64,000 nucleotides of DNA from Polytrichum commune (Eukaryota > Streptophyta > Polytrichopsida > Polytrichales > Polytrichaceae), in assembly GCA_950295325.1 (NCBI GenBank), contig OX485805.1:28939501-29003500 (forward strand), read 5' to 3'. Every line of letters begins with the position of its first letter. The first letter of the stretch is position 1. The position numbers were made by a program, and so were the translations under genes. This document shows, piece by piece, positions 14,519-38,512 of this stretch. Under the pieces are notes generated by a model. It did not search any database and had not been told where the DNA came from. It saw nothing but the letters and a program-made list of their open reading frames with translations.

Positions 14519-16234
14519 CTATTCTCCTTTCAAAAGGTTTTTGTTTCTCAATTTGTAGACCTTCATGTGCTCCATGTTTTTGTCCTTGATTTTCTTGAGA
14601 GCAGAGACATTCATCTGATTAGACACCTTTTCCAGTAAACAACTTTTGTCAAACTGAGGTAAATCATTGGAATATATTCCAACCATGAACTTCTTCTTCA
14701 AGGTTGCGAGCCTTTCACAAATGTTAGAAAATGTTGGCCTTTGTGAAGGATCCTCAATCCAACATTCTTTGATCAAAGTGGTAAGCTCCTCACAATTCAT
14801 AGGTAGCGCAGGCCTCCAACCATCTTTTATTTTTTGCAAGATATCCTTTGTATTCTTTGTGTGTGAAAACGGTACCTCCAGAAACAGAATCTCTGAACAA
14901 GTCATACCAAATGACCACACATCAGGTGGAAAAGGACACGCCATATTTGAGGTTGACTTTTCTTTGTTATTCATCTCAGGTGCCATGTACTTTGGTGTAC
15001 CGATGGTAAACTCTTGCAATTCCGGTTTGCTTTGAACCTCCGTTTTGGAAGCATCATAATCTGTCAATTTGACAAAATCATAGCCAATATTTCCATTGAC
15101 TTTTGGAAATCTTGACACCGAGCTTAAGAGCACATTGCTTGGCTTTAGATCAAGATGGGCAACATGCATGTCATGAAGATAACACATGCCCCTTGCGATT
15201 TCATACATCATATCAATTGCAACAAGATATGGTAAAGGTGTCTTTTGCTTCTTCAGGAAATCACTCAAGCTCATTTCCATGCGCTCCATTACTATGAACA
15301 AATTTCTTGAGACATTGTTCGATCCACCCACATTTTCCTCCTTAGTTTCATTGAGTCTTCCACAACAAATGAATTTCACGAGGTTTGGATGCCCCAAGCA
15401 TCCTAAGATGCCAGCTTCTTTATCAAAATTCGGGAGAACCCCTAACTTTTTTGTGGCACTTTGAAGTCCCAACCAGCGTGATTTGTACACCTCACCCGCC
15501 GCTCCAAATCCTATTCGTTCTAAGAATTTTGGCTTTTCAACATGGTCAGGAATTTCCAAGGCATCCAATTCTCCACCTTTCACTTGTGGCAATTCAAATC
15601 GCAATCTCCTCAATAAATATTTTCCCAATTCATGCTCCTTGGAATCATTGGGCATCGATTGAAGTCTTGTTCGAAGTCTTTCCACCATGGCTTTTCCATC
15701 ACTTTTAACCTCGTCATAAGTGGCCACATTAAAATCAATACATGGGATACTAAAATTTTGTGAATCCGGATAGATAGCCAAATATGTTTCCCGCATTGCA
15801 TCCCAAAAACATTGCAAATCATCCACAAGTTCTCGAAAAGCCTCTGTATTGTTCATTTGGAATGTCACTGCATCGCACCATTCTTGCCTCCCACAATCTT
15901 CGACCAATATTCTTACTTTTCGAGTTATGCGACATAACTCCCCAAGCACAAGCCCAAATTTATTAGTCGTCTCCTTAGTGGATGTGATTATCTCATTCAC
16001 ATAAAGTACAACTTGGTCAAGCTTTTGGACAAGATGTCTACATTGTTTTTCATTCAACACTTGCTTTGCCTTCAGGACCTCTTGAAGTTTGGTTACTTCC
16101 TCCCTTTGCCGCTTCAAAATATCTCCAAGCACATTGCTTTGTTTTTGTCCTTTCCCTACATATGTCCCAAACTTTACGAACCAAATACTTATGAAACCCC
16201 AAATCATGCAAACAAATCGCAAAATCTTGGCCAT
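14519..16234 (-). CDS. Kinase-only relative of the PNL immune receptor (copy A)
   Basis: This is a single open exon of 571 residues from the ATG at 16,234-16,232. That start is kept in both copies; sequence upstream of it differs by a 2-bp indel between them. In order: a hydrophobic segment (about 2-20), a helical region (about 33-150) and a Ser/Thr-type kinase domain (about 235-515). Kinase marks are a GFGAAGEV glycine loop, ATKK lysine, HLDLKPSN catalytic loop (non-RD), LTDYD in place of DFG, GTPKYMAPE, DVWSFGM and RPTF. It is very close to exon 1 of the gene at 28,800-33,924. It lacks NB-ARC and LRR: the donor AAGAAG|GTAAG of copy B reads AAGAAAATCAAG here, and the frame runs 25 more codons to TAG. 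It could be a working truncated kinase or a decaying copy. Confidence 0.72.
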   Translation of the reverse strand: MAKILRFVCMIWGFISIWFVKFGTYVGKGQKQSNVLGDILKRQREEVTKLQEVLKAKQVLNEKQCRHLVQKLDQVVLYVNEIITSTKETTNKFGLVLGELCRITRKVRILVEDCGRQEWCDAVTFQMNNTEAFRELVDDLQCFWDAMRETYLAIYPDSQNFSIPCIDFNVATYDEVKSDGKAMVERLRTRLQSMPNDSKEHELGKYLLRRLRFELPQVKGGELDALEIPDHVEKPKFLERIGFGAAGEVYKSRWLGLQSATKKLGVLPNFDKEAGILGCLGHPNLVKFICCGRLNETKEENVGGSNNVSRNLFIVMERMEMSLSDFLKKQKTPLPYLVAIDMMYEIARGMCYLHDMHVAHLDLKPSNVLLSSVSRFPKVNGNIGYDFVKLTDYDASKTEVQSKPELQEFTIGTPKYMAPEMNNKEKSTSNMACPFPPDVWSFGMTCSEILFLEVPFSHTKNTKDILQKIKDGWRPALPMNCEELTTLIKECWIEDPSQRPTFSNICERLATLKKKFMVGIYSNDLPQFDKSCLLEKVSNQMNVSALKKIKDKNMEHMKVYKLRNKNLLKGE

Positions 16235-22410: not shown

Positions 22411-23236
22411 CATTTTCTAAGTTTGATGCATCATAAAATACCGTGTTTTGTGATCATCACAGGGGGTTTAGAAAAATAGGCTTAAACGTCCATTTATAGC
22501 GATTTGTCTTAGATATTAACAACGGATCACAAACACACAATAATAAGAGTGAATTGTTTGGATCTTGCACCAAAAAAATGAAAGAAAACATCGTTTTGCT
22601 TCGGGCATGAATAGGGACCAAATAATTTGGATGTTGCTATATTTTGCTACATGAGTAATTTCGATTCCACAAAGTCAACTACATTTGGAATAATTCAAGT
22701 ATGGGAATGTGCTCTCAACCGGTTTACAGTGGAACCCGTCCACGAACCAAAGCTTGCATTTGTCACCTCTGCATTTTAAGGCAACATATCCTAAACAAGG
22801 ATTTTATTTATTTAGTTTTGACCCCTATGTGCAAATGATTCCCAATTGAATTGAAAATTTGCATGACACTCAAATCATGAGGGGAGGGCAAATTTGCATG
22901 TGTGAAATCATGTGTTGGACATGTGTTGGTGGGTGTGAATTCATGCAGGATCGTGTAGACCCTCCCAATTTTGCCAACTATTGATTCTAAAATGGTGATT
23001 ATTCCAAGCACAAAGTTCAACTTCATCGTAAGATATGTCTTTTCAGTGTCACTAAAATGATGATAACATTTTTGATATTTTTTTGTTCATCCATTGTTAA
23101 CTTCAAGCTTTGCCATATAACGTTCAAATATAGAGGTCCCGTAACAAGGAGTGACCTCAAAACGCTCACATACCTTAAGTAGATTCAAATCCGACTGTGT
23201 AGCTTTCAAATCTACCTACGCAAAAGTTTGGATAAT

Positions 23237-23725
23237 GATCACCTTGGTTTCAATGAGTGACACTCACCATCACAAAACCCACCGTCATCAAACTTATTCA
23301 ATTTGAGTGGCGTAAGAATCAACAACGAATCCTCAAAGTTTGAACACATTGGATGACCCATTCATGTAACATAGGATCCCCAAAATGATTTACGCCCTGT
23401 AGATAAACTACGCAACTTGTACCCCAAAGTGGATTCATGGACAAGAGATAAGACTTGCAAGTAGTACCTACCTACAAAAAAGTTCATATATTGATCACCT
23501 TGGTTTCAACGAGTGGCACTTGCCATCACAAAACCCACTTTCACCAAACTTAGTCAATTTGAGTGGCGTAAGAATCAACAACGAATCCTCAAAGTTTGAA
23601 CACATTGGATGACCCATTCATGTTACATAGGATCCCCAAAATGATTTACGCCTTGCGGGTAAACTACGCAACTTGTACACCAAAGTGGATTCATGAGCAA
23701 GAGACAAGACTTGCAAGTAGTATTT
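23237..23725. repeat. Two tandem copies of the ~256-bp unit
   Basis: Units start at 23,237 and 23,493. They are the same family as 1,246-1,995, with one copy fewer. Confidence 0.88.
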
Positions 23726-28799: not shown

Positions 28800-28849
28800 T
28801 TAATCAACCGAGGTGCCGCAACACCTGCTCACATTTGGGTTGTAACATT

Positions 28850-30190
28850 CACACAAATCCAATGTTCTCAAAGGAGTCAAGTTCCCCAATCCCTCTGGTA
28901 ATGTGGTCAAGCTTTTGCACCAAAACAAATGCACTATTGTCAAAAAAAGTCAAGTTCCCCAATCCCTCCGGTAATGTCGTGAAGCTCTCACACCAAAACA
29001 AATTCAATGTTGTCAAAGTAGTCAAGTTCCGCAATCCCTCTGGTAATGTCCTCAAGCTCTCACACCAAAACAAATTCAATGTTGTCAAAGAATTCAAGTT
29101 CCCCAATCCCTCCGGTAATGTCCTGAAGCTCTCAAACCAAGACAAACCCAATGTTGTCAAAGAACTCAAGTTCCCCAATCCCTCCAGTAATGTCGTCAAC
29201 CTCTCACACCAAAACAAATTCAATGTTGTCAAAGAACTCAAGTTCCCCAATCCCTCCGGGAATGTTGCAACCTCCTACATCCAAACATATTCAAGTTGTC
29301 AAAACAGACAAGTTTCTCAATCCCTCCGGTAATGTCATCAAGCTCTCACACCAAGACAAATCCAATGATGTCCAAAAAGTCAAATTCCCCAATCCTCTGG
29401 TAATGTCGTCAAGCTCGAACATCCAGACAAATCCAATGATGTCAAAGAAGTCAAGGTCCCCAATCTCTTCGGTAATGTCATCAAGCTCAAACATCCAGAC
29501 AAATCCAAGGATGTCAAAGAAGTCAAGGTCCCCAATCTCTTCGGTAATGTCGTCAAGCTCAAACATCCAGACAAATCCAATGATGTCAAAGCAGTCAATT
29601 TCCCCAATCTCTTCGGTAATGTCGTCAAGCTCAAACATCCAGACAAATCCAATGATCTCAAAGAACTCAAGTTCCCCAATCCCTCCGGTAATGTCGTCAA
29701 GCTCTCACACCAAGACAAATCCAATGATGTCAAACAAGTCAAATTCCCCAATCCCTCTTGTAATGTCGTCAAGCTCGAACATCCAGACAAATCCAATGAT
29801 GTCAAAGCAGTCAAGTTCCCCAATCCCTCCGGTAATGTCGTTGAGTTCGAACATTCAGACAAATCCAATGATGTCAAAGAAGTCAAGTTCCCCAATCCCT
29901 CCGGTAATGTCGTCAAGCTCGAACACCGAGACAATCTCAATATTTTCAAAGACCTCAAGTTTCCCAATCCCTCCAGTAATGTCGTCAAGCTCCAACAACT
30001 ATACAAATTCAATGTTGTCAAAGAAGTTAAGTTCCCCAATCCCTCCGGTAATGTCGTCAAGCTCCAACACCAAGACAAATCCAATGTTGTCAAAGAAGTC
30101 AAGTTCTCCAATCCCTCCGGTAGTGTCGTCAATCCTTTACATATCAATAGTCGAAGGGAGTCTTTCATGCGTGTGGAATTGTCCCTAAGC
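28850..30190. repeat. 72-bp tandem array encoding the LRRs
   Basis: About 17 units of 72 bp; on the minus strand each encodes a 24-residue LRR of the form LTTLPEGLGNLTSLTSLDLSGCSS. Units are similar enough at the DNA level (e.g. 'TCCCCAATCCCTCCGGTAATGTC') for slippage or unequal exchange. The plus-strand and second minus-strand open frames across it are shadows. Confidence 0.9.
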
Positions 30191-31511
30191 CATTGTGAAA
30201 TTTCTTCGTCTATATAAAGCGCTTCTAATTTCTTGTAGTTCTGGGATTCCAATGCACCACAAAATGTCAAAATTATGTTTTGCTGATTAGAGTGGTAACA
30301 AAATTCAACTGTTGTGTTTAGATAACATGGCAAAACCTTTTCACTACATATTTCAAAAGTTTCAAATATAAAATTTGAACAACTTCACGCACATGCAAAC
30401 TTTCACCAACATATTTGTACTTACATTTTACAAAAATCCACCTTATTAAGTTCTTTTATTTGCACCATACCTTGCCATGTGCCGATCCAATTCGTAAAGG
30501 AATCATGTTTAGTTTCCAAATTCGAGTGCCCAAATATTCCTTGTCTGTTTCGACAATCATACGTCCCATGTCACGTAGTTGGTCGTGCATTTCTACAATC
30601 CCATGTTGATTTATCTTAACCAAGGATTTGTCCACCAATATATCAAGCACATGATTTGGGGAGGCTCCATCGTTGGTACATGTACGCAATTCTTTTTCTT
30701 CCCACATGCGCATGGGAAGGAAGCATGCTAGATCCAAAAACATATTTTTCTCATCATTTCCCAATCCATCAAAATTGATCCTCAAGGTACTCCAAAGCCC
30801 TTCATCGCCATCCAAATGCCTACCCCTTTTCATCCTTTGCAAAGCCCGTTCCCAACTTCGAATCCTCTCCTTTCCCCGTAAAAATGCACCCATGACTTCC
30901 AAGCTCAAAGGCAAGCCGTTACATTGTTTTATAATTTTCTCATGTAGATCAAAGAGTTGTGGTGATAATGGAGCTCCATCCACAAGAACTTAAGAATCAA
31001 AGAGTTTTTTCGCTTCTTTTTCATCTAACTTGTCAACATCTATCGTACCATGCGCGTCCATACAATTTGCAAGTGAAGCCTTTCCACGGGTTGTTATAAT
31101 AATTTTGGTGCCATTGTTGACACAAGAAACATCTGCTGGTATTATTTCCCGCACTTGAGTTGCATCTTTGGGATCATCCAATACTAGAAGGATTTTCGTC
31201 GTAGCCAACAACTCCCACATTATCTTCTGTGCATCCTCCAATGTCCAAGTGGACTCTTTGTCACTTCCAAACTTTTGTAAAATTTCACATAAGATTTGAA
31301 GTGAATTTCTACTTTTCAAATTCTCAATAAAACACGATGCATCGTATGTGGACCTCACATCATCAAATATGGCCTTAGCCAAAGTGGTCTTCCCTATTCC
31401 ACCCATACCAATGAGACCCAAAATATTCCTTCCTTCAAGGTGGTTTTTCACCTTTGCAAGATTGTTGTCAAGACCAACCACAACTTCATATCGTGTTTTC
31501 CTTGCATCCAC

Positions 31512-32241
31512 CTGTATGAAGAAGTTCACATATCATGTCAATTGGGCCTAGAAGTGTACACTATGATAGAAGATTCGAAAACACACCGTACATATGAATA
31601 TTGTGAATCTTTCCTAAAAGGTATTACAAAACATGTTTCAAAAACTTCAACAATTTGTTCCAAGAAAATCAATGAAAGCATAATACATACAATTGAAGAT
31701 GGTGGAAGCAACTCAAATTGAAGAAGAAAAAATTGCATAGCCAAGAATGTTTCCACAAATTAGGCTTTGAATACATTCATTTGATTCATTAAGTTTTCTT
31801 TTTTATGGAGCCCTCCAATTCATCATGAATCCAAGAACGATTTTGAAAATTAGTTCATTTCCATGTATATGTAAGGTCATGAAGAATGCTTCTAGAACCA
31901 AATGTCGTCATTAGTTTGTGGATATATTTTTCATAATAAATTTTCAAGTTAGCATTTTGATATTGTAAATCGAATACTTGTAACAATGATAGAGGGCCAT
32001 GTAAAACCAAAATCTACTTGGAAGACCTTTCGGTGCTACTTTATAGCCTTTGACCAAGAGATTTGTGATCTCAACATACATGACCCGTCTATTGGTCCAG
32101 TTGACCATGCTTGCCCCATATCCTATGTTTTGGTTCAATTATCATGTCTTCAACTCCAAGAAAATTATATTATTTAGAACAATTTAAAAATGACATCTAA
32201 AAAATACACAATAAGCATATTGTAATGAAATGTGCTCTTAC
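31512..32241 (-). other. Intron 1 of the PNL gene
   Basis: The donor AAGAAG|GTAAGAGC is at 32,242/32,241 and the acceptor ATACAG|GTGGATGC at 31,512/31,511. Both flanking codons are complete, so kinase and NB-ARC join in phase 0 as ...NVSAPKK-VDARKTRYE.... Nothing else is recognised in it. Confidence 0.8.
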
Positions 32242-33924
32242 CTTCTTGGGAGCAGAGACATTCATCTGGTTAAAGGCCTTTTCCAAGTGGGTGCTTGGGA
32301 AAGAAATCCATCTTTTGAACATATTCCAACCTTTGAACTTTGGTAATTCATTTGAATATATTCCAATCACGAACTTCTTCTTCAAGGTTGTGAGCCTCTC
32401 ACAAATGCTAGAAAATGTTGGCCTTTGTGAAGGATCCTCAATCCAACATTCTTTGATCAAAGTGGTAAGCTCCTCACAATTCATAGGTAGCTCAGGCCTC
32501 CAACCATCTTTTATTTTTTGCAAGATAACCTCTCTTTTATTTGTGTCTAGAAATGGTTCCTTCAAAGAAAGGATCTCTGAACATGTCATACCAAATGACC
32601 ACACATCAGCTGAAAAAGGACATGCCATATTTGAAGTTGATTTTTCTTTGTTGTTGTTATTCATCTCAGGTGCCATGTACTTTGGTGTACCGATGGTAAA
32701 CTCTTGCAATTCCGGTTTGCTTTGAACCTCTGTTTCGGAAGTATCATAATCTGTCAATTTGACAAAATCATAGCCAATATTTCCCTTGACTCTTGGAAAT
32801 TTTGGCACCGTGTTTAAAAGCACATTACTTGGCTTTAGGTCAAGATGGGCAACATGCATGTCATGAAGATAGCACATGCCCCTTGCGATTTCATACATCA
32901 TATCAATTGCAACAAGATATGGTAAAGGTGTCTTTTGCTTCTTCATCAAATCACTCAAGCTCGTCTCCATGCGCTCCATTACTAGAAACAAATTTCTTGA
33001 AACATTGTTCGATCCACCCACATTTTCCTCCTTAGTCTCATTGAGTCTTCCACAACAAATGAATTTCACAAGGTTTGGATGCCCCAAGCATGCTAAGATG
33101 CCAGCTTCTTTGTGAAAGTTGGGGGGAACCCCTACTTTTTTTGTGGCACTTTGAAGTCCCAACCAACTTGACTTGTACACCTCACCCGCTGCTCCAGATC
33201 CTAATCGTTCTAAGAAATCCGGCTTTTCAACATCATCTGGAATTTCCAAAGCATCCAATTCTCCACCTTTCACTTGTGGCAATTCAAATTGCAATCTCCT
33301 CAATAAATATTTTCCCAATTCATGCTCTTTGGAATCATTGGGCATCGATTGAAGTCTTGTTTGAAGTCTTTCCACCATGGCTTTTTCATCATTTTCAATC
33401 TCGTCATAAGTGGCCACACTAAAATCAATACATGGGATACTAAAATTTTGTGAATCCGGATAGATAGCCAAATATTTTTCCCGCATTGCATCCCAAAAAC
33501 ATTGCAAATCATCCACAAGTTCTCGAAAAGCCTCTGTATTGCTCATTTGGAATGTCACTGCATCGCACCATTCTTGCCTCCCACAATCTTCCACCAATAT
33601 TCTTACTTTTCGAGTTATGCGATATAACTCCCCAAGCACAAGCCCAAATTTATTAGTCCTCTCCTTAGTGGATGTGATCATCTCATTCACATAAAGTGCA
33701 ACTTGGTTAAGCTTTTGGACAAGATTTCTACATTGTTTTTCATTCAAAACTTGCTTCGCCTTGAGGACCTCTTGAAGTTTGGTTACTTCCTCCCTTTGCC
33801 GCTTCAAAATATCTCCAAGCTCATTGCTTTGTTTTTGTCCTTTCCCTACATATGTCCCAAACTTTACGAACCAAATACTTATGAAACCCCAAATCATGCG
33901 AACAAATCGCAAAATCTTGGCCAT

Positions 33925-38012: not shown

Positions 38013-38512
38013 GTAGTGCAACTACAAGTCATGAAGCACACAATTCAAAGCATGATGCTAAGTTCAAAGGCAAATGGCACAGTGGCGCTTCACTAGAAAA
38101 AAGACATCGTCAGTAGTGCAACTACAAGTCATGAAGCACACAATTCAAAGCATGATGCTAAGTTCAAAGGCAAATGGCACAGTGGAGCTTCACTAGAAAA
38201 AAGACATCGTCAGTAGTGCAACTACAAGTCATGAAGCACACAATTCAAAGCATGATGCTAAGTTCAAAGGCAAATGGCACAGTGGAGCTTCACTAGAAAA
38301 AAGACATCGTCAGTAGTGCAACTACAAGTCATGAAGCACACAATTCAAAGCATGATGCTAAGTTCAAAGGCAAATGGCACAGTGGGGCTTCGCTACAAAA
38401 AAGACATCGTCAGTAGTGCAACTACAAGTCATGAAGCACACAATTCAAAGCATGATGCTAAGTTCAAAGGCAAATGGCACAGTGGGGCTTCACTACAAAA
38501 AAGACATCGTCA
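38013..38512. repeat. Five tandem 100-bp repeats
   Basis: Units start at 38,013, 38,113, 38,213, 38,313 and 38,413 with exactly 100-bp spacing. They differ at very few sites (for example GCGCTTC, GAGCTTC or GGGCTTC near unit position 74). The lack of divergence points to recent expansion or ongoing exchange. The frame 38,274-38,561 runs through it and is a by-product. Confidence 0.95.

Follow-up and report, generated by a model that had tools for sequence, protein, structure and literature searches.

A locus on the minus strand of a 64,000-nucleotide stretch of the Polytrichum commune genome (contig OX485805.1, positions 28,939,501 to 29,003,500; hereafter the window) joins a kinase, an NB-ARC domain and leucine-rich repeats (LRRs), raising the questions of whether this copy can encode a receptor and what its kinase exon represents. 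The initial annotation described a single receptor gene of the PNL class with the kinase as its signalling or decoy domain. The class naming is correct, as the protein kinase-NBS-LRR genes of Physcomitrium patens have a conserved phase-0 intron between the kinase and the nucleotide-binding site (NBS), and the window locus has the same intron (Xue 2012, PMC3352924; this and the other articles below are cited for the parts of their text that were available). The locus is probably best explained as a decayed PNL member, the intact members of which would combine an MLKL-type module, a phase-0 intron, an NB-ARC domain and an LRR array in an immune receptor.

The kinase, NB-ARC and LRR exons are collinear in that order, and the proposed domain search of the exons matched models of all three. 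Exon 1 (32242..33924) is open over its 561 codons from the ATG, as originally read, with Pkinase matching residues 238-509 (32398..33213; E 1e-37). Exon 2 (30471..31511) carries NB-ARC and Roq1-type winged helix matches (WHD_ROQ1, E 1.9e-14), the latter bearing on a further trait of the PNL class, an NBS nearer to that of TNLs than to that of CNLs. The junctions at 32242/31511 and 30471, which border intron 1 (31512..32241) and open intron 2 (30241..30470), are phase 0 and recur in 11 close paralogs (L001-L011), the aligned stretch of L006 stopping two codons short of its own gtaag. The LRR acceptor had been placed at 30282, but the AG at this position is not conserved among the 11 close paralogs; instead, intron 2, also of phase 0, ends at a CAG/AAC acceptor at 30241/30240 that is found in 10 of the 11, L009 being different. 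Exon 3 matches LRR models, and its open part (29380..30240) comprises a linker followed by LRRs and runs to the first stop past the first frame break. The LRR array (28853..30132) consists of 17.8 copies of a 72-base unit with three out-of-frame steps. The units are very regular here and in the LRR exons of L003 and L010, with occasional frame steps.

The boundaries of the 347-codon NB-ARC exon thus stand, but the exon is not open. Codon 174 is an in-frame TAA (30992-30990) that had been overlooked; it is flanked by the NB-ARC and winged-helix matches and falls between what we take to be the RNBS-B and GLPL motifs. As claimed, the NB-ARC motifs follow one another in readable order, but the stop interrupts them. 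The LRR array had likewise been read without its frame breaks, at 29466-29395 (71 bases), 29323-29253 (70 bases) and 28965-28892 (73 bases), and the LRR frame ends at 29380. In comparison, nine close paralogs out of 11 have an open exon 2, the others being L004, with a stop, and L002, with a broken frame; LRR frames reach 604 codons in L001, 589 in L003, 458 in L005, 728 in L006, 704 in L010, 690 in L009 and 218 in L004. The continuous frame through NB-ARC and LRR that characterises the class is therefore missing from the window copy, which, as assembled, is a broken member of the kinase-NLR (nucleotide-binding leucine-rich repeat receptor) or PNL family and cannot encode the full receptor; the description as a single receptor gene fits the family. 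In-frame translation would go no further than the stop, leaving at most a 734-residue stub (561 + 173 codons). Stops far before the last exon junction fall under the general rule of nonsense-mediated decay, and since this one sits 519 bases ahead of the exon 2/3 junction, decay of the transcript is expected.

The window copy is one of three tandem exon-1 copies on one strand, at C3:28914574 (L002), 28954091 (window copy 2) and 28971742 (window copy 1, the locus described above). Window copy 2 is a stand-alone frame of 571 residues (14519..16234, minus strand) with no NB-ARC or LRR match nearby, reading on through a lost splice donor; as it nests among fused copies in the exon-1 tree, it has lost its NLR part. 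Exon 1 is intact in all three copies, whereas the NB-ARC exon is frame-broken in L002, absent from window copy 2 and stop-interrupted in window copy 1. This pattern suggests that window copy 1 might work as a truncated HeLo-kinase-half-NB protein, or through exon 1 alone by intron retention, with copy 2 as a free MLKL-like gene. The exon-1 ratio of nonsynonymous to synonymous substitution rates (dN/dS) between the window copy and six close copies, 0.36-0.47, agrees with this proposal in lying within or under the range of other pairs (0.40-0.72). Against it stand the decay expected from the position of the stop and the small number of exon-1 stops expected under neutrality, 1.3, which gives a probability of 0.26 of seeing none and makes the intactness of exon 1 weak evidence. 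The private exon-1 changes of the window copy (20 nonsynonymous to 12 synonymous) show no departure from the neutral expectation (P 0.15), so that this copy alone gives no sign of constraint, a point that also counts against the preferred explanation of the locus. Neither constraint nor decay of the window exon 1 is shown, and a working truncated product is unlikely. In the same gene, intron 1 (32241-31512) is 97.7% identical to the L003 intron despite an exon-1 dS of 0.116, perhaps through gene conversion; 200-base windows gave no clean breakpoint of a mosaic.

Exon 1 had been read as a plain kinase. Its residues 1-237, however, appear to be a further region related to the HeLo/DUF1221 domain and brace of plant MLKL. 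A profile of 19 diverse exon-1 rows finds as its best PDB match the chain 6lba_A (E 5.9e-53), in a single alignment that spans residues 21-516 of the chain; PMC10881975 refers to 6lba as MLKL. When the profile is built from 18 close members, 6lba is again the best PDB match, with the brace stretch aligned; residues 53-151 are aligned separately at 14.6 bits (independent E-value 0.085). On the window copy the HeLo/DUF1221-like region corresponds to residues 53-151 (33472..33768), aligned to 6lba residues 21-126, and the brace-like region to residues 178-237 (33214..33393), so that the brace and kinase of exon 1 run colinear with a solved plant MLKL. Compared directly, 6lba 21-126 scores 18.8 bits against the N-terminal profile A2 and 21.9 bits against the broader N-terminal profile A5, compared with 1.1 when reversed. 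The best of 20,000 shuffles (18,503 scored) gives 14.3 bits and the best of 20,000 Markov sequences (18,720 scored) 15.9 bits, so that no control sequence reaches 21.9 bits; 6lba 21-126 was picked because it was already aligned, and these controls therefore test one chosen pair. The comparisons establish exon 1 as a sequence homolog of plant MLKL, over brace and kinase and probably also over a HeLo/DUF1221-like region. As the window gene has an NB-ARC domain, exon 1 is filed as an MLKL-type module within the NLR family and not as an MLKL. RPW8 was considered for the loci L014 (E 0.0072) and L044 (E 4.7e-4), both below the cut-off, and was not used.

Genes of the same genome provide a link between the two groups. 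PF06760 (DUF1221), which defines plant MLKL in RefPlantNLR (PMC8559963), identifies 16 places in the genome, one of them above the cut-off, and two of the 16 (C4:5412060 and C3:8796763) lie inside kinase exons that have an NB-ARC. Five places were fetched (L040, L041, L042, L043 and L044). L040-L043 are DUF1221-kinase genes with no NB-ARC match in the sequence at hand, a lack that is less certain for L042b, which has only about 0.7 kb downstream, than for L040, L041 and L043; L044 is a kinase-NLR. L040 exceeds the DUF1221 cut-off (26.4 against 25 bits) and L044 lies below it. The kinase-NLR profile A5 in turn scores 71.4 bits with L044, 54.7 with L040, 43.5 with L041, 41.5 with L042b, 14.4 with L043 and 10.4 with L042a, and the best of 2,000 shuffles ranges from 5.8 to 9.5 across these N-termini (8.3 for L040). 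The stand-alone DUF1221-kinases form a bridge in sequence between MLKL and the kinase-NLR exon 1. L043 is followed by an F-box/beta-propeller gene.

The fusion of kinase and NB-ARC is a family trait. A genome search with the kinase exon returned 80 matches among 683 candidates, which correspond to 78 places once one fragment was dropped and two pieces of one gene were joined; the list of NB-ARC exons was reduced from 117 to 109 rows by leaving out seven distant rows and joining two pieces. All family counts are lower bounds, because the searches score the best candidates only. An NB-ARC exon follows on the same strand within 6 kb in 75 of the 78 kinase exons, at a median gap of 245 bases, the three without one being window copy 2, C6:36876982 and C5:33840098. 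Conversely, a kinase exon lies upstream of all 16 NB-ARC exons that were fetched (15 of the 34 unpartnered ones and one more distant). A second kinase-NLR clade (L029-like) gave 77 matches among 799 candidates, with an NB-ARC in each of seven further loci fetched. In a midpoint-rooted tree of 37 exon-1 rows, with long-branch warnings for L040-L043 and L044, the fused copies and the nested stand-alone copy of the window form a clade (support 98/88), L040-L042 fall on the other side of it and L043 lies between. The window exon 1 and others of clade 1 begin with a hydrophobic stretch (about residues 3-26, 33847..33918), and the second large clade (L029, L033-L039) is without it.

Several results weigh against an MLKL-type module. 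Even with E-values up to 10 allowed, PF06760 matches none of the 18 close members. In the PDB, profile A2 alone places 6lba at the top, but at an E-value of only 0.087, and profile A5 alone does not find it there at E 10. The match to a further MLKL chain, 6ka4, covers brace and kinase, but the N-terminal region of this chain scores -2.4 bits. Of the stand-alone genes, L042a does not exceed its shuffles under profile A2 (7.2 against 8.4 bits) and is weak under A5 (10.4 against 5.8). The hydrophobic helix is missing from the second clade, and clade-1 kinases have HLD and mostly DYD in place of HRD and DFG. AlphaFold2 models, built from a two-row alignment of only the two exon-1 copies of the window, are poor, with a predicted local distance difference test (pLDDT) score of 32.6 for exon 1 and 48.1 for its first 228 residues. 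A Foldseek search with the 228-residue model gave no match at E 0.001, and the 50 VIA rows shown hold STAT, designed bundles and others, with MLKL absent among them; neither the models nor the fold searches were weighed in either direction. As structure prediction failed (pLDDT 33 and 48), a HeLo fold of the exon-1 N-terminus is unproven.

These points bear on the proposal that exon 1 encodes an ordinary kinase extended by helices unrelated to MLKL, and that the receptor signals by phosphorylation only, as reviews assume. Surveys do call the domain a protein kinase (PMC3352924, PMC11218826, PMC10952240), and both the lack of a direct DUF1221 match in close members and the weakness of the N-terminal profile alone in the PDB agree with them. 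The colinear match to MLKL over its full length, the shuffle and Markov controls and the bridge formed by the DUF1221-positive L040 argue the other way, and we regard an ordinary kinase as improbable.

Returning to the damaged NB-ARC and LRR exons of the window copy, their lesions could be assembly errors masking an intact gene, and several paralogs likewise have frame steps late in their LRR arrays. One substitution-type stop and three separate steps in a single gene, set against the rarity of internal stops in sister exons (six of 126 NB-ARC rows and eight of 80 kinase rows), make this very unlikely, and decay is the preferred explanation.

The kinase itself appears catalytically equipped. 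K262, E273, D362, N367 and D392 are found in all 19 diverse and all 18 close rows, with the exception of K262 in the close row L005, which falls on a gap with a lysine adjacent. The five core catalytic residues are thus present in the fused copies that were checked, unlike in a pseudokinase. In contrast, three of the five stand-alone genes (L040, L041 and L043) are without one or more of them, L042a and L042b keeping all. A signalling role of the N-terminal module is favoured, because the module occupies the N-terminus in every part of the family that was examined and retains the core catalytic residues. The least probable reading is that of the kinase as an integrated decoy baiting effectors, raised in the initial annotation and in keeping both with RefPlantNLR, which counts P. 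patens kinase domains as integrated domains (PMC8559963), and with the position in the kinase C-lobe (32724-32525) of the 200-base segment of the gene that diverges most from five close paralogs (83-88% identity): it finds no support here, since the kinase, always N-terminal and with its catalytic residues kept, forms the usual N-terminus across a large family and is not a one-off insertion. The same C-lobe segment, against 90-99% identity in the other 200-base segments of the gene, is a possible diversifying surface. Elsewhere the window holds two tandem repeats, one of five copies of a 100-base unit (38013-38512, 98%) and one of two copies of a 256-base unit (23212-23722, 90%).

The class as such is already published, as PNL (Xue 2012) and as Pkn-NLR (Chia 2024, PMC11218826). 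The PNL genes and the kinase-NL gene PpC24 (Tanigaki 2014, PMC3991678) have the same kinase-NBS-LRR order, and the PNL family is similarly large with many incomplete members, six of 45 being complete in the table of PMC3352924; the window copy differs by the stop inside its NB-ARC. The Pkn-NLRs are likewise NLRs of non-flowering plants with a kinase at the N-terminus and are placed close to the TIR-NLRs of bryophytes; when the kinase of a P. patens Pkn-NLR was tested in Nicotiana benthamiana, the cell-death response was modest and variable (PMC11218826). In that survey the N-terminus is classed as protein kinase, in a structure cluster whose representative is Tsn1, and MLKL figures only as a separate NLR-associated category. 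Tsn1-type monocot kinase-NLRs similarly carry a kinase ahead of the NLR and belong to the CC/RPW8 clade (PMC11218826). Plant MLKL (DUF1221/HeLo-kinase; 6lba) shares the colinear HeLo-like region, brace and kinase, whereas exon 1 is fused to NB-ARC and LRR. The Arabidopsis MLKLs are called pseudokinases, in contrast to the core catalytic residues kept in the kinase-NLR family; Pm13 of wheat combines an MLKL_NTD with a putatively active kinase, so that pseudokinase status is not universal among MLKL-type proteins, and differs in having no NB-ARC or LRR (PMC10951266). The MLKL/HeLo N-terminus goes unmentioned in the available descriptions of PNL genes (PMC3352924, PMC3991678), and the available text of these two articles and of PMC11218826, PMC10952240, PMC9950082, PMC10951266, PMC8559963 and PMC10881975 does not apply the MLKL label to the moss kinase N-terminus. 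Literature searches limited to open-access articles gave no title or abstract that does so either, although the link may still be published. What most deserves further work is the probable identity of the fused module as MLKL.

The window copy, being broken, is itself of little weight, and the family is of more interest. In intact members, LRR recognition would switch the NB-ARC to an oligomer, which would bring MLKL modules together, and kinase and brace would then release the helical domain for membrane permeabilisation, partner phosphorylation or both. We see an even chance that the large kinase-NLR family consists of MLKL-NLR fusions, each chain uniting sensor and switch with an entire MLKL-type executioner (HeLo, brace and catalytically intact kinase), that these fusions form a single clade derived from stand-alone DUF1221-kinases still present in the genome, and that some copies of the family, such as window copy 2, have shed the NLR part again. 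Moss kinase-NLRs have been described since 2012 with an output known only as 'kinase'; should the N-terminal module be an entire MLKL, the predicted output becomes membrane damage driven by HeLo, with the kinase built in. Execution of the necroptosis type would in that case be coupled straight to NLR sensing, with no helper NLR or separate MLKL, and two cell-death systems that surveys, in their available text, give as separate protein categories would be linked.

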